Part shown: piece by piece, positions 51,914 through 63,454 of the stretch | Numbering within the stretch: position 1 is the stretch's first letter | Layout of the letters: each line of letters starts with the position of its first letter | DNA from: a virus | Direction: 5' to 3' (one strand) | Length of the DNA stretch: 64,000 nt | IMG/VR virus record: IMGVR_UViG_3300046694_000136 | Location: 170,504 to 234,503 of that record | Program-made: the position numbers and the translations under genes | The notes under the pieces: model-generated | The model's input: only the letters and a program-made list of their open reading frames with translations | Database searches by the model: none | Told to the model about the DNA's origin: nothing

Positions 51914-53251
51914 CTATACTTCTTCGATGATCGGTCTCCAACCCGCATAGGTCTGAGTGGCATTGAGTGCAACATACCAACCAGCAAGGATCTGACGGTT
52001 ACCGTTGTTATCCGCGTCGTTATAACCGCGAACCAAGTGAGTGTTGCCACCGACGTTCAACTCTTGACACCAAGTCATCACACCAGCTCCACCGGACTGA
52101 GCTTTGTTGGTAGACAACCCCAACTCAGCATCTGTGTAAGCGGCCCAGCGAGGATAAGCTTGGATCTCAGGTTGTTGAAGAGACACCCCGCCATAGACAG
52201 GATAGATCAAGTCGTTGTACTCACCGGCCGTTGCAATAGACCCGTAAGAAGCCGGCTCAGACGCAGCGCCAGTAGGAATGCGCAGAGTATGCAACTTACC
52301 ACCAATGGTGAACTGTTGCTGCTTCTTGGTGATCCCAAGAGCGTTTAGCGCTTCCCACGTCATGCCGTGACGCAGTGCTTTCTTCGGCATGTAAACAGTC
52401 TTGCCTTTGTAACGGTACTTCAACCAAGTGGTATTAGCATTCGTTACAGAGCCAACTGAACCCATCCCTACCAAAGCCGTCAACGCAGCAACCGTAATGA
52501 AATCAGCTTCAGCAACTTCACCGTAGAACATGTCTTCTGGCGGAGTTATCCCAACGTATTCCAAGACAGGGCGGAACCCATAAACATCCAAAGTACCCTG
52601 ACCATTACCTTCGTTCGTGTTGGCATCGTTGATGATGGTGTGACGAGCGATTGTGGGTAAGCCAGTGCCGGAGGTGTAATCCCAACCACGAGCAGACAAC
52701 GCTGTGGTAATCGTAGTGTGCTGGTTCTTACACACCGACACCAAACCCTTCTGACCAGCAAGACTGTTATTAAGAACCAGTCCTAGATCCTGAGCCGTAT
52801 AGTACGACCACACTTCAGCACTAGGTCTATCTGCCGCAGAGAAGATCGGCCAAATGTACTGGTCCCATTCCCCACCTCCGTTGTTGTTCACAATGGAGGA
52901 GAAAGGGTCGACGGACATACCGGTCATTAACCGGACTTTATACGTCACACCGCCAATGAGAACATTTTTACCGACTAGCAGGTTGGCCGCTTTATAGGCA
53001 GCTACAGTTGTTCCGTAACGTAATGTTTTCCGTGCAATGTAAAACGTCTTACCTGCATCAATGTATTTAAGCCAACCGACTTTGTCATTGATAGGAGTAC
53101 CAGAGGTCAGTCCCAGTAGGGTAGCCAGCTCAGGGCCCGCAATCAGATCGTCTGAACTGACGTACCCCTGAAAGGGTTTACCGGCAACCACTGCTGGAGG
53201 AACGAAAACTTCCGCTGCTTGGACTCCCTTTAAAAGAAGTGCTTCTAACAT
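51914..53251 (-). CDS. Adhesin-like virion protein with two copies of the amplified domain
   Basis: A 445-residue protein made of two copies of a roughly 200-residue domain. Each copy begins with F-x-G-x-V-x-x-x-D-(F/L)-I, then GWLKYIDAGKTFYIARKTLR-type strands, a GG-x-(T/L)-x-(K/L)-x-R-(L/I)-x-TG strand, a GGEW(N/D)-x-x-I-(W/Y)P turn and a closing GWRPI/VLE. The same domain occurs in the five neighbouring genes upstream (to 59573). Composition and position next to the tail fibre suggest receptor-binding or fibre-decoration proteins. No family name is certain. AAGGTGG precedes the start. Last gene of the minus-strand block. Confidence 0.68.
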   Translation of the reverse strand: MLEALLLKGVQAAEVFVPPAVVAGKPFQGYVSSDDLIAGPELATLLGLTSGTPINDKVGWLKYIDAGKTFYIARKTLRYGTTVAAYKAANLLVGKNVLIGGVTYKVRLMTGMSVDPFSSIVNNNGGGEWDQYIWPIFSAADRPSAEVWSYYTAQDLGLVLNNSLAGQKGLVSVCKNQHTTITTALSARGWDYTSGTGLPTIARHTIINDANTNEGNGQGTLDVYGFRPVLEYVGITPPEDMFYGEVAEADFITVAALTALVGMGSVGSVTNANTTWLKYRYKGKTVYMPKKALRHGMTWEALNALGITKKQQQFTIGGKLHTLRIPTGAASEPASYGSIATAGEYNDLIYPVYGGVSLQQPEIQAYPRWAAYTDAELGLSTNKAQSGGAGVMTWCQELNVGGNTHLVRGYNDADNNGNRQILAGWYVALNATQTYAGWRPIIEEV

Positions 53252-53260
53252 GAGGCCACC

Positions 53261-53719
53261 TTACGCGGCTAGCGCTACGGGCTTGGGTTCTGTTGGGTTG
53301 TTAATGATCCGGTGAAGGTTCACACCCGCCATAATAACTTTCTTCTTCCACGGAGTTACTTCCAATACATCCATGGACTCTTTCAAAATCGCATCAATCT
53401 GCTTACGGTTAACCTTAACCTTGGTCTCCACCCCATTAATCATCTCGAGGATGTAGTAGGTGGTGCAGAGCTTGTCATGCAGCGTGGTGCACTGGGTGTA
53501 CTCGCCAATAGGAGGGAGCAACCACCAGAGGAAGCGTGGAATAGTCGCTCCATCTGTTTGGAATCCGGTTTCCACAGTGACGTACTGGGGAGAGTTCTCC
53601 TTGCCAATGTAATAGTTGAACCCGGGGACAGTATCCCATATATCCTTTTTGTTGAGCACACTCGCTATCTTGTTAAACCGCAACTGCTCTTCAGCGCTAA
53701 AACGGGTAAATGTACTCAT
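53261..53719 (-). CDS. DUF1353 family protein
   Basis: A 152-residue protein with the DUF1353 core: ETGFQTDGATIPRFLWWLLP followed by PIGEYTQ and LHDKL (conserved His-Asp). DUF1353 proteins are common in tailed phages near tail or lysis genes; a peptidase-like active site has been suggested but function is unproven. AAGGAG precedes the start. A C-G closed UUCG hairpin lies between it and the upstream gene. Confidence 0.85.
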   Translation of the reverse strand: MSTFTRFSAEEQLRFNKIASVLNKKDIWDTVPGFNYYIGKENSPQYVTVETGFQTDGATIPRFLWWLLPPIGEYTQCTTLHDKLCTTYYILEMINGVETKVKVNRKQIDAILKESMDVLEVTPWKKKVIMAGVNLHRIINNPTEPKPVALAA

Positions 53720-53745
53720 TGAACAATCTCCTTATTACTTGGAAT

Positions 53746-53765
53746 CCTCCCTCCGAAGAGGGAGG
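53746..53765. terminator. UUCG-type hairpin in the minus-strand block
   Basis: CCTCCCTC pairs with GAGGGAGG around CGAA on the plus strand; as minus-strand RNA the loop is C(UUCG)G, a very stable tetraloop. No T-run follows, so partial termination or mRNA-end protection is likelier than a full stop. Confidence 0.62.
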
Positions 53766-53773
53766 CGCTAACC

Positions 53774-54433
53774 TTACTCTTCCGGAAGGAAGAAGTTAGT
53801 CGGTTCCTCAGGCAGGTCTTCAAAGGTCAACGCTGCGTCGATAGCCGCTTTGTAATCCCACGACACGGCGTAACTTTGCTGCACTTGAACAAAGGTACGG
53901 TCGGCCATGTCAACAACCTGCTGAGCGGTCATGACAACGGTGATGTTCTCATACACACGGAACGGGAAGTCCATCGTCCCACCACCGGCGATAACTTCCT
54001 TCGCAATGGTCCGGTAGTCCGAGATGTTACCGCGGTCAGAAGAACGGACCTGCACGTGCAGTACTTGGTCATTGGCGAACTTGTAAGGGAACCCTTTACC
54101 CAAAGCAGCGATGCGCAGGGATTCAGCCTGAGTACGCATGATGGTCTTACGCTCTTCCAGCTTGTTTGCGGCTTCTACTTCACTGTAGGAACGGGAGACC
54201 CACGTTTGAGTCCAGATCCCGAGGATGTTCTCCGGCTCGCCCTCAGTAACCACGTCACCAGCAGGAGCAGGGGTTTCTTTAACCAGCTCGATACCGAACT
54301 CGTACAGAGTTTCCGAATCACTGGTAGGGCCGAAAGCGGTGTTCGGTGCGTACTTAGCCATATCGGCCAAGAAGACTGGGTAAGTACCGCTATCGCTGTG
54401 GATCAAGCGGGTAGTGCGAGTTACTGTAGTCAT
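53774..54433 (-). CDS. DUF4376-like fibre-associated protein
   Basis: A 219-residue protein whose C-terminal part (MADRTFVQVQQSYAVSWDYK and AIDAALTFEDL) matches the end of DUF4376 proteins, which are often fused to or encoded beside phage tail fibres. The middle contains a strand pattern (VLHVQVRSSDRGNISDYRTI) also typical of that domain. It may act in fibre assembly. AAGGA precedes the start. Family call is from motif memory. Confidence 0.65.
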   Translation of the reverse strand: MTTVTRTTRLIHSDSGTYPVFLADMAKYAPNTAFGPTSDSETLYEFGIELVKETPAPAGDVVTEGEPENILGIWTQTWVSRSYSEVEAANKLEERKTIMRTQAESLRIAALGKGFPYKFANDQVLHVQVRSSDRGNISDYRTIAKEVIAGGGTMDFPFRVYENITVVMTAQQVVDMADRTFVQVQQSYAVSWDYKAAIDAALTFEDLPEEPTNFFLPEE

Positions 54434-54444
54434 GTTTGATTTCC

Positions 54445-55350
54445 TTACAGAACAAGTTCAAAAAGAGGACGCCAGCCGTGCAGGTTGTGCGTTGCGTTAG
54501 TAGTCAACGAGATGTTCAGTAAATCTGGTTGGGTCCCGCTGCCACGGTTGATGCAGGTGCCGGTCTGAAGGTCGGTAGAGAACGTAATCCAAGACCCGTT
54601 AACCAGATCATCCAGTTGCTTATAACCCAGAGTGTCGGGATAAGCACGGTTCTGGAAAGCATACGGAAGGATCAGGTCGTATTCACCACCCATCTGATCG
54701 GCAGGAGTAGCGCTGTTACTGGACATCACTGCACGGGATGTTGGAACCCGCAGGATGAACGAATGGTCACCACGAGTTACACCCTTAGCCTGTGGAATAG
54801 TCCCGAAGGTTGTCTTGGCGTAAGCGGCCCAATCAGAGCTTGGGAAGTTCCCGTAGATCACACCTGCACGATACAGCAGTTCCCACGTAATCGTGGTATA
54901 CAAGGCTTGACTAGCGATGTAGAGGATCTTGCCTTTATAGACAAACTTCAACCACCCCAGTGCAGCATCAGTGTTTTCACCAGAAGCGCTCGTGATAGTC
55001 CCTACAAAGTTCTTACACTCTTGAGTAGAGAACAAATCAGACATTGGCATCTTGCCGAAGTAACCGAAACTCCAATCGCCACGAAGCAATGCCTGAGGAC
55101 CTGGACCGGTGTACGGCATATACGCCAACACCTTGTTAGGAGTCAGCGCGGTATCGGTACCCTTGCGAGAAGCGACGCGATAGTAGTACAGCTGGTTACG
55201 TACTGCGGTGTCATCTGTGTACGTCAACGTCCCAGCAGGCAATACCGCAAGAGCAGCAGGTAATGCACCATCGGCAATGGGAGCGTTCGCTCTGTAAACG
55301 GTGTACTCGTCTGCCGTATTAGGGTCAGTCCAATCAATCTTAATACCCAT
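54445..55350 (-). CDS. FN3-like plus adhesin-like domain virion protein, 301 aa
   Basis: Residues about 1-85 form a fibronectin type III-like sandwich (IKIDWTDPNTADEYTVYRAN, later YTDDTAVRNQLYYYRV). A linker GPGPQALLRGDWSFGYFG joins it to one copy of the amplified domain (WLKFVYKGKILYIASQAL ... GGEYDLILPY ... GWRPLFELV). Two further upstream genes have the same two-part plan. GGAGGG precedes the start. Likely a receptor-binding or fibre-linked protein. Confidence 0.68.
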   Translation of the reverse strand: MGIKIDWTDPNTADEYTVYRANAPIADGALPAALAVLPAGTLTYTDDTAVRNQLYYYRVASRKGTDTALTPNKVLAYMPYTGPGPQALLRGDWSFGYFGKMPMSDLFSTQECKNFVGTITSASGENTDAALGWLKFVYKGKILYIASQALYTTITWELLYRAGVIYGNFPSSDWAAYAKTTFGTIPQAKGVTRGDHSFILRVPTSRAVMSSNSATPADQMGGEYDLILPYAFQNRAYPDTLGYKQLDDLVNGSWITFSTDLQTGTCINRGSGTQPDLLNISLTTNATHNLHGWRPLFELVL

Positions 55351-55361
55351 TTAACCCTCCG

Positions 55362-56309
55362 TTAAGCTGGGATGTATTCGAGAACAGGAACCCAAGACAC
55401 CCAAGCACCTGATGCAGCACCCGTAATTGCTCGAGGAAAAACCCCGGTCCAGTTACTGTTGGTTACCGAGAAATTTGCGGTGCCTTGAAAATGCTGTACC
55501 GCGACCAACGGGTAAGGAACACCTGCAACATCGTTCCAGCGGTTGACGGGGAACACAGCAGCATCCGCCGGATCAGCCGCCATAGACGCCATCATGGCCA
55601 TGGTGGACCACCACTCACACCCAGGGAAGGAAGAACGGTCAGCGACGCTCTGATCTGTGGGGAGTGTGCTGTTCTTTGGTAGACGCACCAAGAAACTGTC
55701 CGATCCAACGGTCACTACTTTCTTCTGGTTAACGGTTACAGGGATAGCTGGTTGCGCGGCTACTGTAGTCAGGTTAAATGGAGCAGCACCCGGACCATCT
55801 ACTCCGTAAGCCAGGCCTAAGTTATAGATCTGAGACCACGTGCAGGTACCCTGTGTACAGCAGATGTTGTTGGGCATGAACAAGATCTTGCCTTTGAACA
55901 CAAACTTGTACCAACCCGTCATCGTTCCGTCAGCAGGAGCACCGCCCAGCCCAGTTGCTGCAAGAGCAGTCCTTAACTGAGAGATGGTAAACAACTGAGC
56001 AACAGGAACGAACCCCATATACCCAGCGTTCCAATCCCCTCGCAAGACCGTATTACCTCCCGGCCCTGTCTTGGAGAAGTTCCCGTACAACATGCACTGG
56101 CTATGCTGTGTATTCGCTCCGGCTTTAATTGCCTCCAGCATGTAGTAACGAACACTTTGGTCAGGAACCGTAGTGTCGGTATACGTGATAGCTGAAGGAT
56201 CCAATACCGCTTTGGTACCTGGGAGTGTCGCTGTAGTAAATGCCGTATCGGACCAATAAAGGGTCAGACTATCAGCAGTCAATGCCGGCCAATCAATTTT
56301 GATGGACAT
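55362..56309 (-). CDS. FN3-like plus adhesin-like domain virion protein, 315 aa
   Basis: Same plan as its neighbours: N-terminal sandwich (IKIDWPALTADSLTLYWSDT, then YTDTTVPDQSVRYYML), linker GPGGNTVLRGDWNAGYMG, then one adhesin-like copy (WYKFVFKGKILFMPNNI). The domain end (SWVPVLEYI) departs slightly from GWRPVLE. Two adjacent cysteines (NICCTQGTC) are unusual in the set. AAGGAG precedes the start. Confidence 0.68.
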   Translation of the reverse strand: MSIKIDWPALTADSLTLYWSDTAFTTATLPGTKAVLDPSAITYTDTTVPDQSVRYYMLEAIKAGANTQHSQCMLYGNFSKTGPGGNTVLRGDWNAGYMGFVPVAQLFTISQLRTALAATGLGGAPADGTMTGWYKFVFKGKILFMPNNICCTQGTCTWSQIYNLGLAYGVDGPGAAPFNLTTVAAQPAIPVTVNQKKVVTVGSDSFLVRLPKNSTLPTDQSVADRSSFPGCEWWSTMAMMASMAADPADAAVFPVNRWNDVAGVPYPLVAVQHFQGTANFSVTNSNWTGVFPRAITGAASGAWVSWVPVLEYIPA

Positions 56310-56318
56310 GAGAGCTCC

Positions 56319-57263
56319 TTAAGCGTCGATCAGTTCCAGCACGGGCCACCAGCCGTATGACATGCCGTTCCACGTCGCGGCGGCGCGGTTAGCGATGCCT
56401 GTACGGTTAGCCGCCGAGTTACCACGGATCAGGTTGTTGGCGACGTTACCGGCCGCGATGCGTTCCTGGACAATGTTCCCGACTGTCACCCCTGTCAATC
56501 CCATACCAAGATCAGCTACAGTAGCTTGCTGAACGTTAGCCATGCGCTGTTGATCCGGGCAATACATCGACAACGGATAAACCAAGTCCATCCATTCGTT
56601 TGGCCATGTTTCCAGCGGTTCACCGATAGCCGGGGTCACTGGGTAGCGAGCCAAGGTATCGTCAAAGCCCGTCATGCAGCGCACACGGAACTGTTCACCA
56701 CCGATGGTAACTTTGGCACTCTGGTTGACGTTAGCGCCGGCATTGGAAGGGCCAGCGTTATCCACGCCGTATACCGCGCCTAAGTCATACAGTGTTTTCC
56801 AAGAAATACTCCCCACCAACGGTCCGTTAGGGACAAAGAGTACTTTGCCGTTACGGATCCATTTGTGCCAGATAGGACCTTGCTGGTTAACAACACCAAC
56901 GGTCATACCAATAGCTGCACGCAAGTCGTTGGTGTTGATGAGCTCACCGGGGGTCAGTGTCCCAAAGTAACCGTAGGTGAAGTCACCCATCTGGATCGCA
57001 GTAGGGCCAGGACCCTTCCGAGGAACAGCGCGGATAGGGATGTTGTCAGTACTTTGTTTATCGGCGCCCACGATGGTTTCGACTACGTAGTAGTACAGCG
57101 TGTCGCGAACAGTGGTGGGGTCGGTTAAGGTGGCTTCGTTGTTGGTCAGGGTAGCAATGGGGTTAGCCAAGTTAGCCCGATCAAGTTTGGAAGTACCGCG
57201 GTAAATCTTGGTGGTGAACGTACCCGGAGCATTCAGGTTAGTCCACGTCAGAATCGTATCCAT
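56319..57263 (-). CDS. FN3-like plus adhesin-like domain virion protein, 314 aa
   Basis: N-terminal sandwich (ILTWTNLNAPGTFTTKIYRG, then LTDPTTVRDTLYYYVV), linker GPGPTAIQMGDFTYGYFG, and one adhesin-like copy (WHKWIRNGKVLFVPNGPL ... RVRCMTG ... GWWPVLELI). Pairwise similarity to its two neighbours is strong in the sandwich and at the strand motifs and weak in the loops, which suggests loop diversification. AAGGAA precedes the start. Confidence 0.68.
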   Translation of the reverse strand: MDTILTWTNLNAPGTFTTKIYRGTSKLDRANLANPIATLTNNEATLTDPTTVRDTLYYYVVETIVGADKQSTDNIPIRAVPRKGPGPTAIQMGDFTYGYFGTLTPGELINTNDLRAAIGMTVGVVNQQGPIWHKWIRNGKVLFVPNGPLVGSISWKTLYDLGAVYGVDNAGPSNAGANVNQSAKVTIGGEQFRVRCMTGFDDTLARYPVTPAIGEPLETWPNEWMDLVYPLSMYCPDQQRMANVQQATVADLGMGLTGVTVGNIVQERIAAGNVANNLIRGNSAANRTGIANRAAATWNGMSYGWWPVLELIDA

Positions 57264-57274
57264 TTTTCAGTTCC

Positions 57275-58291
57275 TTAGGCAACGTATGACCCGGTGATAG
57301 TGAAAGCCTTAAGGCTAGGGGATTCAGACGTACCCCGAGGGGCCGCTACTTTAATCGCCTGATTAACAAAGCTGTAATTAGCTGTAGGTAAAGGAGAAGC
57401 CCAGTTCTTCTGTCTTAAACCAGCCACCTTTAAAGCGGCGTTACCGGTCCACTGACGAACTTCAGTGATGACCGGAGCAAAGGGACCCGGGGTCCGATAC
57501 AGTAGGGCGTACGGGTCTTTAGCCGCATCATCAGGGATCAGTTCCAATACTGGACGCCAGCCGTGGACGTTAGAGGTCCCGGAAAGCTTATCGGTCTTGA
57601 GAATGGTCCGAGCAGCCGCGATAATCTGTGAACTCGATGCGTCACCTCGAACAAAGCAACTGTTGACGTTAGTCGACAAAGTTTCCTGAACAAGGGTATC
57701 GGGACCCGATGAAGGAGAGATCCCGACAGCGGCATAAGGGAAGTTAGCAAACACCGGAGCGCCAACACCCCCGTTGGTGTCGTTAACCGCACGACCAAAC
57801 AACTGGTTCCATTCACCGGTGTAGATGCTACCGCCTGTGGTTGGGTCAGCTGGGTAGCCCTTTATCAATCGAGGCTTTAATACCCAGAGTTTCTGACCCT
57901 CGTACTTAGGCATCTGGATGTACTGATGCTTAGGCGTTGCAAGCGGGTACTTACCGCCATCCCTTGTTCCGTACACCAGTCCAGCCGCGTACAAATCAGC
58001 CCAAGAGATGTTAGAACGGAAAGGCATCTTCGCAACAAAGGTAACAACCCCGTTCCAGATAAACTTCAGCCACATGTTGCCGTTGGCTGCCGCTACTGCT
58101 GTAGGGTTGTCAGTACCCAGATAAAGACCCGCTTGTCCTGCTACCTGTGATGGCGAAAACAACTGAAGGTCAGTAACTTCACCAAAGTAACCCAGTGTTG
58201 CATCCCCAGCCACCAATGTCTTGGGACCGGGTCCTGAGTTAGCAATATAAACGCTTTTGCTCCCTGTAGTTAATAGTGCTTCAATAGGCAT
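57275..58291 (-). CDS. Adhesin-like domain virion protein with C-terminal beta domain, 338 aa
   Basis: Lacks the N-terminal sandwich: it starts close to the GPGPKTLVAGDATLGYFG linker, followed by one adhesin-like copy (WLKFIWNGVVTFVAKMPFRS ... YTGEWNQLFGRAV ... GWRPVLELIP). A C-terminal extension of about 80 residues is beta-rich and replaces the sandwich at the other end. GGAGGG precedes the start. Suggests domain shuffling within the gene cluster. Confidence 0.66.
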   Translation of the reverse strand: MPIEALLTTGSKSVYIANSGPGPKTLVAGDATLGYFGEVTDLQLFSPSQVAGQAGLYLGTDNPTAVAAANGNMWLKFIWNGVVTFVAKMPFRSNISWADLYAAGLVYGTRDGGKYPLATPKHQYIQMPKYEGQKLWVLKPRLIKGYPADPTTGGSIYTGEWNQLFGRAVNDTNGGVGAPVFANFPYAAVGISPSSGPDTLVQETLSTNVNSCFVRGDASSSQIIAAARTILKTDKLSGTSNVHGWRPVLELIPDDAAKDPYALLYRTPGPFAPVITEVRQWTGNAALKVAGLRQKNWASPLPTANYSFVNQAIKVAAPRGTSESPSLKAFTITGSYVA

Positions 58292-58304
58292 GAGATTCCC
58301 TCCA

Positions 58305-59573
58305 TTAGGGGACTAATTCAAGTACCGGTCTCCAGCCATAACCAGCGTGTGTGGTGTTAGCGATCTGGTACCATACGCCGCCAAATCCAGGATAGCCGCG
58401 AGTCGCCCAGCCACCATAGGACGCGTTGAACTCTTGGATAAGAGTCAGCTCGTTATTCCCCGTGCTACCGGTCCAGCCAATGTCGGTCATGGTGTAAGAA
58501 GCCCACGCATTCCCTATTGGGGTGTACTGGTTCGTAACCCTCGTGAAGTAGTCGTTGTACTCACCACCACCCACAGAACCAGGATCAGCTGTCAGGCCTG
58601 TCATCAGACGTACCTTATACGTCAAGCCACCAATAACAATCGTCTTCGTTCCCTTTACCGCCCCTAGTGCTTCTAACTGCTCGTGGGTGATATTGTTCCG
58701 AATAGACATCTTCGGCATGTAGAACGTCTTACCATTATCAATAAACTTAAGCCAAGGCGAGGTGTTGTTAGTCACTGTCCCCGGTACCAAGCCGATAGCA
58801 GCAGCCAAAGCAGTAGCGTTGATAAAGTCAGCCGCTAACACTTCGCCTTTGAACGGAGTAACAGGAACAGGCGGAGAGGTGCCCTTTTCATACAGCATAG
58901 GACGCCAACCAATAAAGAACCCTACGTCCTCTGGGTTGGTGTACCAAACCCCAGCGATGTTCGGCGGAGTAGTCCCCGGGTATTGAACACCGCGCAACGC
59001 ATGACCACCACCTTGACCACCCGCAATAACTTCTTTAACGTGAGACATTGCACCAGGAGTAGTCAGCTTATCCTCAGACCCTAGGGGAATCCCCAGCATG
59101 TGACTGTCGTAAGGACCCCAGTTCTCTTTTGTAACTGGAAGTTCTGCTACCCGCTCACCGTTATAGATGTTGTACATGTAACGGTTCCACTGCCCACCAC
59201 CGTTAGAGGGGGTACCAGGATCCAGACCTTGGCCAGCCATCCCCGTCATGAAATCAACGAGGAATGTTTTGCCGCCAAGAATAATTTCTTTGCCTTGCTG
59301 CGCTTGATCAATCGACGCCCAAGTCAATGCGTGTCGCAAAGGTTTCTTAGCAATGTAGATGTTGTACCCGTTATCCTCTACGAAGTGCAGCCATCCTGAT
59401 TCATTGTTAATGGCAGTACCAGCAGTTAACCCAATTCGTGTGGCTAAGGTAGTTCCATTGATAAAGTCTCTGGATCTAACTACGCCTTTAAACGGGGTAC
59501 CTGCGGGGAATGCTAAATCGTGATCATCTTGTTCCTCTGCGGACGGTCTTGAAGTTAAAAGAGCTTCTAGCAT
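58305..59573 (-). CDS. Adhesin-like virion protein with two domain copies, 422 aa
   Basis: The start is CAT at 59571-59573 (MLEALLTSRPS, matching MLEALLLKG of the gene at 51914), preceded by GGTGGG; the frame upstream of it is only open by chance. Two copies of the amplified domain follow, each with F-K-G-x-V, an IYIAKKPLRH or FYMPKMSIRN strand, FMTG or LMTG, GGGQWNRYMYNI or GGGEYNDYFTRV and GWRPML or GWRPVLEL. The N-terminal identity with the 51914 protein marks these two as a distinct subtype at the two ends of the cluster. Confidence 0.68.
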   Translation of the reverse strand: MLEALLTSRPSAEEQDDHDLAFPAGTPFKGVVRSRDFINGTTLATRIGLTAGTAINNESGWLHFVEDNGYNIYIAKKPLRHALTWASIDQAQQGKEIILGGKTFLVDFMTGMAGQGLDPGTPSNGGGQWNRYMYNIYNGERVAELPVTKENWGPYDSHMLGIPLGSEDKLTTPGAMSHVKEVIAGGQGGGHALRGVQYPGTTPPNIAGVWYTNPEDVGFFIGWRPMLYEKGTSPPVPVTPFKGEVLAADFINATALAAAIGLVPGTVTNNTSPWLKFIDNGKTFYMPKMSIRNNITHEQLEALGAVKGTKTIVIGGLTYKVRLMTGLTADPGSVGGGEYNDYFTRVTNQYTPIGNAWASYTMTDIGWTGSTGNNELTLIQEFNASYGGWATRGYPGFGGVWYQIANTTHAGYGWRPVLELVP

Positions 59574-59647: not shown

Positions 59648-62600
59648 TTAAGGAACCACAGTACCCGCTGCACCAGTCCACTCCACACCATCCCAAGTGA
59701 AGGTGATGAAGGTACGGCTACCAGTCAGAGACGGAGGCGAACCGCCACCCCAAACCAGAGCAGTGGCACCGGTAGGAGCGAAGGTGATCGCACCCGTTGC
59801 ACCGTTGATCTTGAACACCAGGATCTTGCCACGAGCAGGAGCTTTCGGTCCGTCACTCAGGGTAATGGTCTTGGCAGTTGCAGTCGTGTTGGTCACAACA
59901 ACGAACTGGGTGGTCAAGGCATCGACGTTAGCGGTTGCAGTGAGGGTAGTGATCGCCAAGTCGTAGGTGTTGAACTCAATCCAAGCATTGTTCTTGTACA
60001 CGTACGTCTTGTTATCGACACCACCAGCAGGACCGGAGATACCCTGCGTGATGACCTGCCAGGTCTTATCACCTTTCCGAGCGTACAGGTTAGTGTCCGC
60101 TGGAACATCGGCGAAGCCAGGTACGAATGCGTTGATCTGTGCCTGAATCTTGCCGAAAGCAGTGATCACTGTATCCGCTGGAAGAATCGCACCACCAGTA
60201 GCAGTGGTGAGGCCTGTCAGCAGAGTTCCACGTACACGAGGTTGAGTGAAGTAGAGGTTGGTAGAACCCTCGATCACAGCATCCGAAGTACCAGGCGATG
60301 CAACCAGTGCGGTGTACTGAGTGCCGGTCCAGCGATACTGCACGTTGGTGTTAGTGGCGATGTAGATCTTGCCAGTTTCACCAGTCGCTGGGAACGCGGC
60401 CAAGTTGGCGAATTCCAACACGTCGTCAACATAGCTCGGGAGCTGGCTGGAAGGAATGAACCCACCTACCAGTGTTGCGACCGTGACACCCAGCGCAGTA
60501 GCAGGAACACCACCCAAGCTGCTGATGGTTGGAGGAATGAACTTGAACCAAGAGCCGTCGTCGTCACCGCTAACACGAGTACGCATGTACGTACCGCCGT
60601 CATCGGTAGGTTCTTCGATCCCTTTAGGGAAAGCCAGCTCGATCCACTCACCTTCGTTAGTCAGGCTACCTGCTTTCAACTGACGCACGTAGTACTTACC
60701 ATCGATCATGGCAGGCACTTCGTCAACAGGCAGCATGATCCACTCGTTACCGAGACGAACCACTTTACCAGCCGACAACTGTGGTGAGTTAACATCACCC
60801 GCTACCAGACGACCCCAGTACACCCAGCCACTAACAGCCGACTTGTAGTAGACCTTGAAGGTATCCGATACAGCCCAGTCACCGATGTTACCAGTGAAGC
60901 CAGCACCCGGCTCATCCACACCCGGTGGCAGAGTAATCCAGGACGAACCTTTCTCACCCTTATCACCTTTCTTGCCGATACCAATAGGACCAGGAACACC
61001 CTGAACACCCTGAGGACCACGTACCAGACCGATGTCGATCCACTTCCCGCCATCAGCAGCTGTCCAGATAGCCAGGTTGTTACCAACCAGATAACCATCA
61101 CCCAAGTTACCGGTAGGTTTATCAGCAGCCAGCTCAGCCAAGGTGTTATAAGCACCGAGGATAGAGATCGACTTACCGGCTTCACCTTGGATACCTTGGA
61201 TACCCTGTAGACCTTGCAGACCAGTGATGTCGAACGGACCAGCCCACTCGCCGTCGGTCAAGACATACAGCATCTTGTCGATGGTGGTGAAGTAGCCGTC
61301 GCCTTCAGCAGCGTTGATCGGCAGAGGGAGGAAGTTAGGGTGAGTTACGGTACCGCGTAGCTTGATACCCGTACCCATAGGACCAGTGTCACCACGAGCA
61401 CCTACCGGACCGCCGTCAATCCATTGCCCGTTGAGCGAGATCTGGATGTGCTTGTCCAGGTCGACATAAGCCTTACCCGGGTTCGCAATGGCATCTGGGA
61501 TAGTCGCATCTTCAGGAGTCAGGATCTTGATGATGGTGATCGAGGAACCGTTGGCGCCATCGTTACCATTTTGGCCATCTTCACCTTTGAAGGCACCCAG
61601 AGGGATCCAGTTACCACCGACGAACGCATACAGGGTGTTGGCATCCCGTACCGCATAAACGTCTTGCTCTGCTGGGGTCTCCGGCAAAGCAACAAAGGTA
61701 GCGACAGACCCTTTGATAATGACGTTAGTCCCGTTAGTCCCATTGGTACCTTTCAGCGAGATCAGGAACTCGTTTTCAGAACCACTGTGACCGTTAGCCA
61801 ACCAGAGTTGGTAAGTGGACTGACCACGGAACGGACCCACGTCTTTCCAGATGCTGGAAGTCAGGATGTGCAGGTGACCGTCGTCATTGGTGACGTAGCC
61901 ATCTTGCTCTTCTGGATTGACGATGTTACCCAGCTGACCAGCGTTGGCAACAGTACCTTTAACAGTCAGGTTCTGGCCACGAAGACCTTGAGGACCCGGC
62001 TCGGTCGACTTCAAGGAAGCCAGCCATTGTTGCAGGGTGCCCGGGAAGCCGTCGCTAACAGCCAGCTCGTAAGCGGACATGCCACCAACCGAACCGAGGT
62101 CAACGTATTGGTTTTCGGTAGTTACCCAGACATACAGGTGGCTACCAACGTACCACGCTTCTGCTTCATTACCCGGGGTAGGAAGCTGTCCTTCGGTCGG
62201 AACGGAGCCCTTCACAACGAAAGGACTACGAGCAGGACCCATTGGACCCGGATCACCTTTGGTGGTCGACTTCAGTGTATCGAGGAAGTCTTGCTCAGTA
62301 CCGGAGTTACCCTGACCCAACCAGATCTGGTAGTTCGACTTACCCACCAGGCTAGCCAAGAAGTCAGGCTGAGTACCCGAGTGACCGTTAGCCAACCAGA
62401 CTTGGTAAGCATCCTTACCTTCAGGACCTTCCAGACCGATGGATACCCACTCCGGCAGAGGAACGTCCTCAGGATCTTCAGGAGGAGTACCGTCACCGCT
62501 TGGGACCAACAGCCAGATGTCGCTTTTCCAGATGTACGCATCACCGACGGTTTGCGCAGCAGGAGAAGGCAGAGCCAGTCCATTAGGCCACGAACCCAAC

Positions 62601-63454
62601 AGGGTGATGCCACGAGGACCCAACAGGGAACCCGAATGTACCCACTCTGTTTCACTCCAGATGGAGATACCACCCTCAACGAAGTAAGCACTACCGTTCA
62701 GCAGGCCTTCCGTAGGGATAGCGTTCAGCTCAGCGAAGTTGTTCAGCGTACCGAGCAACTTGATGTTACCTACAGCGCCGTCAGCGCCCTTCAGGCTAGC
62801 CAGGAACTGTGCTTCAGTACCAACGTGGCCATTCGTCAGCCAAACGTCGTAGGCACTCTTACCGACCAGTTTGGTGAGCCATTGGGTTTCAGTACCGGTC
62901 TCGCCGTTTTCAACAGCAACCTCATAGGCACTTTTACCGTCGTCACCTTTCAGACCAATCGATACCCAACCATCCGGTTCAGGGATGAGCAACCAGATAT
63001 CCGACTTCCAGACATAGGCGTCACCTACGGTATTGGAAGCAGGAGCTGGCAGGTCCAAGTTGTCAGGCCATTTGCCGAGCAACGTAATACCACGAGGACC
63101 AAGCAATGAACCGGAGCTGGTCCACTCAGTCAGGTTCCAAACGCGCAGAGCGCCTTCGACGAAGTAGGCATCGCCTTTCTTCAGACCGACCGTTGGGATG
63201 GCATCCAGTTGAGCTTGGTTATCGAGAGTACCGATAACGTTGACCCCGTTCAGGATCAGTGCGCTGAATTCTTTCAGCAGGTAGCGGGTACGAGCATCCA
63301 GTACTCGCGCTTGGAAGTTAGCGGCGCCAGTGCCGTCGGACTTACCTTGTACCTTCACACCAGAGATCAGTGCGGGTAAGTGCTCGACCCAGACTTCCGC
63401 TTCTTCAATAGCCGGCAATTCGCCGGGTGTAACCGAATCATCTGTAATAGACAT
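59648..63454 (-). CDS. Collagen-like tail fibre protein, 1268 aa
   Basis: A very long modular fibre. After an N-terminal segment with a probable attachment role, it alternates three elements: short collagen-type G-x-y runs (GLQGLQGIQGIQGEAG, GPQGVQGVPGPIG), six copies of a roughly 25-residue repeat of type SAYxxWLxxGHxGTxxxFL (e.g. KSAYDVWLTNGHVGTEAQFL), and repeated small beta units with GDAYxVxxxLxVWxxxxW patterns. The C-terminal 330 residues contain the known fibre motif IPSSQLPSYVDDVLEF with ATGETGKIYIATNTN, and end in a beta domain likely to be the tip. Trimerises and recognises the host surface in related phages. AAGGA precedes the start. Confidence 0.9.
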   Translation of the reverse strand: MSITDDSVTPGELPAIEEAEVWVEHLPALISGVKVQGKSDGTGAANFQARVLDARTRYLLKEFSALILNGVNVIGTLDNQAQLDAIPTVGLKKGDAYFVEGALRVWNLTEWTSSGSLLGPRGITLLGKWPDNLDLPAPASNTVGDAYVWKSDIWLLIPEPDGWVSIGLKGDDGKSAYEVAVENGETGTETQWLTKLVGKSAYDVWLTNGHVGTEAQFLASLKGADGAVGNIKLLGTLNNFAELNAIPTEGLLNGSAYFVEGGISIWSETEWVHSGSLLGPRGITLLGSWPNGLALPSPAAQTVGDAYIWKSDIWLLVPSGDGTPPEDPEDVPLPEWVSIGLEGPEGKDAYQVWLANGHSGTQPDFLASLVGKSNYQIWLGQGNSGTEQDFLDTLKSTTKGDPGPMGPARSPFVVKGSVPTEGQLPTPGNEAEAWYVGSHLYVWVTTENQYVDLGSVGGMSAYELAVSDGFPGTLQQWLASLKSTEPGPQGLRGQNLTVKGTVANAGQLGNIVNPEEQDGYVTNDDGHLHILTSSIWKDVGPFRGQSTYQLWLANGHSGSENEFLISLKGTNGTNGTNVIIKGSVATFVALPETPAEQDVYAVRDANTLYAFVGGNWIPLGAFKGEDGQNGNDGANGSSITIIKILTPEDATIPDAIANPGKAYVDLDKHIQISLNGQWIDGGPVGARGDTGPMGTGIKLRGTVTHPNFLPLPINAAEGDGYFTTIDKMLYVLTDGEWAGPFDITGLQGLQGIQGIQGEAGKSISILGAYNTLAELAADKPTGNLGDGYLVGNNLAIWTAADGGKWIDIGLVRGPQGVQGVPGPIGIGKKGDKGEKGSSWITLPPGVDEPGAGFTGNIGDWAVSDTFKVYYKSAVSGWVYWGRLVAGDVNSPQLSAGKVVRLGNEWIMLPVDEVPAMIDGKYYVRQLKAGSLTNEGEWIELAFPKGIEEPTDDGGTYMRTRVSGDDDGSWFKFIPPTISSLGGVPATALGVTVATLVGGFIPSSQLPSYVDDVLEFANLAAFPATGETGKIYIATNTNVQYRWTGTQYTALVASPGTSDAVIEGSTNLYFTQPRVRGTLLTGLTTATGGAILPADTVITAFGKIQAQINAFVPGFADVPADTNLYARKGDKTWQVITQGISGPAGGVDNKTYVYKNNAWIEFNTYDLAITTLTATANVDALTTQFVVVTNTTATAKTITLSDGPKAPARGKILVFKINGATGAITFAPTGATALVWGGGSPPSLTGSRTFITFTWDGVEWTGAAGTVVP

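Follow-up and report, generated by a model that had tools for sequence, protein, structure and literature searches.

Phage SPN3US encodes what has been called potentially the largest paralogue family of any phage genome. The 20 members of this paralog family B (gps 83, 138-154, 161, and 237) are found in the heads of a tailless mutant (PMC5694885, PMC5105663), and a later study of a tail-tube mutant assigned 21 paralog B proteins to the head, moved gp237 to the tail, and considered that low-abundance proteins may be parts of the neck (PMC10052503). No function is deduced for these up to 21 virion proteins in the papers that describe them (PMC5694885, PMC5105663, PMC10052503), and our literature search found none for phiKZ gp83 or 201phi2-1 gp456. 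SPN3US family B, the phiKZ gp83-like virion proteins, and phrog_1062 have in common with the proteins described here the same domain, preceded by an FN3-type or longer N-terminal part.

A second group of relatives comprises the variable proteins of diversity-generating retroelements (DGRs), including Mtd of Bordetella phage BPP-1, TvpA, and those we find in the records L105, L109, L115, L121, and L146, which feature a homologous target domain with a C-terminal variable repeat. DGR target proteins of solved structure have the C-type-lectin fold (PMC5006420); among 224 jumbo phages surveyed, none was reported to have a DGR-type domain of this kind (FGS) (PMC7824862). A third is provided by phage tail-fiber tips, the domain being the end of a fiber-type protein in L121 and L126.

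Here we compare with these systems a gene cluster in the window, our term for the whole 64,000-nucleotide stretch analyzed, which is the end of a phiKZ-like jumbo-phage record. The cluster shares its E-D-B gene order with SPN3US gp145-153, but where SPN3US has three tandem triplets the window has one four-gene set and two double-domain genes, placed beside a tail-fiber gene. In contrast to the DGR systems, the record holds neither a reverse transcriptase nor a template repeat, and a sequence search with the domain matches none of the solved DGR proteins significantly; unlike tail-fiber tips, the products of genes A to F lack a fiber shaft or attachment domain, and in SPN3US the related proteins belong to the head. 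We would class the window proteins as phrog_1062 virion proteins rather than as a DGR, and liken them in function to a receptor-binding domain. The virion family itself was already known; what appears to be new is a DGR-type binding domain as a fixed virion component multiplied in sets, and in the literature covered, which is not the whole, we found no link of SPN3US family B to DGR targets.

Results

As transcribed from the minus strand, the genes run in the order tail-fiber-type gene, F, E, D, C, B, DUF4376 gene, DUF1353 gene, A (Table 1). The domain spans about 185-235 residues and occurs in eight copies (A1, A2, B, C, D, E, F1, and F2) in six minus-strand genes (51914-59573): when each gene in turn was left out of the HMM, the omitted one was recovered at 66-225 bits (E 2e-22 to 7e-71) versus 10 bits for the best of 200 shuffles, and the paralogous copies are 22-41% identical in pairwise comparison. 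These searches bear out the eight copies counted in an initial annotation made without database searches, together with its motifs and its allotment of one copy to four genes and of two to the others (A and F). Its description of six adjacent genes holds for F, E, D, C, and B, which are contiguous, but A is separated from B by the DUF4376 and DUF1353 genes. Likewise, the C-terminal extension ascribed to one gene is that of E, but the GPGP..GD...GYFG linker thought to be limited to three genes is present in four (B, C, D, and E), and the N-terminal EALL of the double-copy genes is not confined to these, as E begins with MPIEALL.

All six products match phrog_1062 (function not given; E 3e-37 to 7e-119), and further matches are to phrogs labelled virion structural protein or of unknown function; no tail-fiber family, shaft, or baseplate-attachment domain was matched by A to F, and no Pfam model scored above cut-off for the domain. 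Relatives occur in phiKZ-like phages including 201phi2-1, Noxifer, PhiPA3, and EL. The tail-fiber-type gene, a conserved neighbor of F, encodes many units of the YxxWLxxGHxGTExxFLxSLKG type together with collagen-like linkers.

Table 1. Coordinates of the cluster and its parts (window positions except for the source record).
Feature	Coordinates	Strand	Description
Source record	170504-234503 (window)		234,503-base phiKZ-like jumbo-phage virus record (234.5 kb); window is its end
Tail-fiber-type protein gene	59648..63454	minus	Collagen-like repeats, phrog_3904; upstream of F here and in relatives
Gene F	58305..59573	minus	422 aa; two domain copies, F1 58884-59504 and F2 58308-58862
Gene E	57275..58291	minus	338 aa; GPGP linker and one domain (57533-58237), then C-terminal extension (57278-57526)
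Gene E, DGR-face equivalent	57563-57670		Residues 208-243
Gene D	56319..57263	minus	314 aa; FN3 (57024-57263), GPGP linker, one domain (56325-57017)
Gene D, DGR-face equivalent	56355-56450		Residues 272-303
Gene C	55362..56309	minus	315 aa; FN3-type N terminus, linker, one domain (55368-56069)
Gene B	54445..55350	minus	301 aa; FN3-type N terminus, linker, one domain (54448-55110)
DUF4376 / phrog_4998 gene	53774..54433	minus	Unrelated to domain; member of conserved block
DUF1353 / phrog_1158 gene	53261..53719	minus	'Tail assembly chaperone' in PHROGs; unrelated to domain; member of conserved block
Gene A	51914..53251	minus	445 aa; two domain copies, A1 52550-53185 and A2 51917-52537

AlphaFold models of two proteins, D and F, were obtained from alignments of natural relatives (pLDDT 91.9 and 89.7, respectively). 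In both F copies and the D copy, strands and helices follow one another in a similar order, such that one common domain fold is predicted across the copies in these two proteins and the modelled copies agree rather than differ. The strands had been described as kept and the loops as variable, and strand and helix positions are indeed the more conserved in both D (0.67 vs. 0.54 for loops, reached by none of 313 circular shifts) and F (0.56 vs. 0.45, reached by 2 of 421). The N terminus of D is modelled as a seven-strand sandwich matched by Foldseek to FN3 structures with a probability of up to 1.00, and B and C align with D in this part, in agreement with the FN3-like N terminus proposed for three genes; at the sequence level, Pfam fn3 matched none of the three. 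Sequence searches of solved structures with the domain, DGR proteins included, gave no significant match, and among predicted viral proteins the confident matches to the F model were virion proteins of the same family only. TvpA, PvdO, and an FGE paralogue recur among the Foldseek matches, if weakly (E 0.3-1.2, probability at most 0.20). Membership in the FGE family (13 proteins) was also considered and found not significant by profile comparison, with an hhalign probability of 0.1% equal to that of the reversed control and the aligned part confined to RLP/RLxTG. A C-type-lectin fold for the domain is likely, if unproven.

The domain recurs beyond the jumbo phages. One alignment proved too diverse to serve as a query; with the B-E alignment, the scan extended to other phages, in which an iterated HMM seeded by the eight window copies scores the domain at 203-247 bits. 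In unrelated smaller phages it is the C-terminal tip of fiber-like proteins: in L126 it stands at the C-terminal end behind collagen and fiber segments, and in L121 after a fiber-type N terminus in a gene directly downstream of baseplate genes. It is likewise C-terminal behind Mtd_N, the latter above its Pfam cut-off (L118), and is further found inside a protein with laminin-G-type repeats (L106). In L105, L115, and L121, where the domain scores 203-239 bits, the 3' gene ends are variable repeats. Five contigs (L105, L109, L115, L121, and L146) have, downstream of the domain gene, a template repeat with mismatches at template adenines: every one of 60 core positions is identical or a template A in L105, L109, and L115 (15, 11, and 9 mismatches, respectively), as are 58 of 60 in L121 and all 50 in L146, a Eubacteriales MAG (9 mismatches), and the template codons at changed sites are often AAC or AAT. 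A reverse transcriptase lies approximately 0.9 kb downstream of the domain gene in L105, L115, and L121, with an Avd gene directly behind the domain gene in the latter two. This is the anatomy of a DGR targeting this domain in all five. The variable repeat ends with codons for GWRP[AV]LE, corresponding to the GWRPVLE motif of the initial annotation, and the window copies align through it via their RG and GWRPVLE anchors; the jumbo-phage copies are the same domain as the DGR target, without a DGR.

Among bacterial genomes, relatives were found at two loci only, in a Halomonas genome, where no template repeat was found, and in the Eubacteriales MAG mentioned above. The Mtd_N-bearing protein (L118:5797-6678) belongs to a jumbo-size record, the same as L081, which also has two three-gene sets; no reverse transcriptase was found in it.

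A DGR in the window's own record was rejected. RVT_1 has no match there or in any of 38 related jumbo records, and comparison of all eight copies with the whole record gave best A-tolerant matches of 42-43 of 50 positions with 16-25 identities, which is noise. Absence of a DGR from the phage itself is likely rather than certain, since the record may be incomplete.

A tree built from 128 copies of the domain (short search without bootstrap; inner groups with SH-aLRT values of mostly 95-100) places each of A1, A2, B, C, D, E, F1, and F2 with same-position copies from other phages. The related records L054 and L060 have the identical order fiber-F-E-D-C-B-DUF4376-DUF1353-A, with 67-86% identity for A to E, and gene A is 67-81% identical to its orthologues in L054, L060, L061, and L063. 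Since same-position orthologues are so much closer than the paralogues within the window, the duplications are ancient and predate these phages, and the domain tree rules out a recent tandem expansion. Gene F is the exception in pace: it is 73% identical in L013 and about 46-59% in other phiKZ-like phages, and against L054, L057, L060, and L071 it retains 46-49% while B to D hold 71-86%.

Copy number changes by whole sets. L013 lacks E-D-C-B and has, besides the fiber gene and F, the DUF4376 and DUF1353 genes and another gene with two domains; L073 has a tandem pair of whole sets, and L078 has two sets at least largely complete; and one whole triplet of SPN3US is missing from its relatives EC001 (L170, Escherichia phage vB_EcoM_EC001) and SPLA3 (L171, a Salmonella phage). 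E-D-C-B, or a triplet, thus behaves as a block in gain, loss, and duplication, which suggests that the proteins of one set work together. In EC001, whose listed host is E. coli, and in SPLA3 it is the third triplet (gp151-153) that is cleanly missing, gp150 being followed by gp154. A divergent single-domain copy, absent from the window, lies between the DUF4376 and DUF1353 genes of L054 (L054:13340-13969; 83 bits, very long branch).

We then compared conservation at the positions of DGR-mutable codons, hereafter the DGR face, with that of the rest of the domain. Among close orthologues it is lower at the face of D (0.64 vs. 0.84, p 0.005) and E (0.54 vs. 0.74, p 0.01), with no deficit in A, B, C, or F within the window clade; these are eight tests, of which strict correction leaves D only. 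In other clades the face is less conserved in four of four D-type groups (p 0.0002-0.036), three of four E-type groups, and four of five B/C-type groups (p <0.05), where p-values come from random position draws and may be inflated by loop alignment error, which may also account for part of the signal between distant phages. Rapid change of the face between strains was not seen: among SPN3US relatives 8 of 113 face sites vary versus 120 of 1911 others (p = 0.69). An excess between distant phages but none at strain level indicates that the face diverges over long times and is not hypermutated. F is a candidate variable receptor gene in that it diverges fast overall, though not at the DGR face.

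Evidence for location comes from relatives. Record notes of 201phi2-1 list gp439-442, gp452, and gp456 as identified in virions by mass spectrometry, and SPN3US gp145-153, which score 101-147 bits with the domain HMM, belong to the head-assigned family B; homologs are present, rather than absent, in purified virions (PMC5694885, PMC10052503).

Discussion

We lean, by a modest preference, toward a reading in which several virion subunits form a fixed set for ligand binding, located probably on the head or neck, that changes by ordinary mutation and involves no retroelement. On this view, the products of the six genes would be virion proteins whose ligand lies outside the particle, most likely on the host surface, and a domain homologous to DGR targets forms either the end or the whole of each. 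In B, C, and D, the FN3 sandwich and GPGP linker probably hold this domain off the particle, whereas A and F would present two domains in tandem. Because phages gain, lose, and duplicate B to E as a block, these four would act as one unit, presumably as a physical hetero-complex, whose most likely place, as in SPN3US, is the head or neck, where it would give the phage a further contact to the cell in addition to the tail fibers. Its binding face would be permanently encoded, changing by ordinary mutation. Ligand binding by this phage's proteins, the hetero-complex, and the head or neck location are inferred, and the adhesin-like character first proposed gains strong indirect support from the use of the same domain as the tip of fiber-like proteins and as a DGR target in other phages.

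A wider proposal, which we put forward only tentatively, is that phiKZ-like jumbo phages possess a second, head- or neck-borne adsorption apparatus, a multi-protein array of DGR-target-type receptor-binding domains that are retained, and duplicated, as whole sets; if true, this would explain SPN3US paralog family B. Should that family indeed share a fiber-tip domain that retroelements diversify elsewhere, it acquires a function open to experiment together with specific residues to probe, and the question arises why giant phages keep fixed paralogues where smaller phages hypermutate a single gene.

The strongest competitor, to which we give a rather low probability, is a tail version of the model of the initial annotation, in which the proteins form tips or side branches of the adjacent tail fiber or of the baseplate, one receptor per copy. 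Counting against our preferred reading, the Pseudomonas-phage genes beside a tail-fiber gene do argue for the tail: Noxifer gp133-136 adjoin tail-fiber and sheath genes, EL gp155 adjoins tail fiber gp156, the conserved neighbors in the window are the tail-fiber gene, the DUF4376 gene, and the DUF1353 'tail assembly chaperone' gene, and the domain is a fiber tip in other phages. However, the SPN3US homologues were assigned to heads with two different tailless mutants, gp237 alone having later been moved to the tail (PMC5105663, PMC10052503), and A to F match no tail-fiber family; on balance, the head or neck is favored over the tail for these proteins, clearly if not overwhelmingly. Nor does the expansion of a receptor repertoire fit what we observe: the copies are ancient orthologous lineages fixed by position, in the same order in other phages and changing in number as whole sets, their excess divergence at the DGR-type face is limited here to D and E and does not appear between SPN3US strains, and the SPN3US relatives are assigned to the head rather than the tail.

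It is distinctly unlikely, in our estimate, that ligand binding has been lost in jumbo phages and that the set is a structural cement stabilizing or decorating the capsid or neck. Such a role would accord with the head assignment in SPN3US, with the conserved gene order and distinct types, and with the lack of a DGR-face excess in A, B, C, and F or between SPN3US strains; yet in several groups it is precisely at the DGR-face positions that divergence of the D and E types is fastest, and a set number that varies within one viral genus, or an L013 without E-D-C-B, would be odd for an essential cement. Hardly probable at all is packaging of the set in the head for entry into the cell with the DNA, as the SPN3US head location and the 'head ejection?' label of the abundant family members gp141, gp143, and gp160 might imply (PMC5694885), given that the domain elsewhere is an external fiber tip and DGR target, that the listed substrates of the prohead protease do not include family B (PMC5694885), and that gp141 and gp143 do not match the domain model.

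Two minor observations concern the surroundings and relatives of the set. In eleven deposited genomes of Salmonella phage SPFM, the match to SPN3US gp152 consists of 13-16 joined pieces of 98-99% identity, a fragmentation that perhaps reflects sequencing errors rather than biology. Finally, the DUF1353 and DUF4376 genes travel with the block of fiber and domain genes, and in Noxifer, L073, and L075 the DUF4376 gene directly follows the fiber gene, a position that suggests a role in fiber assembly.
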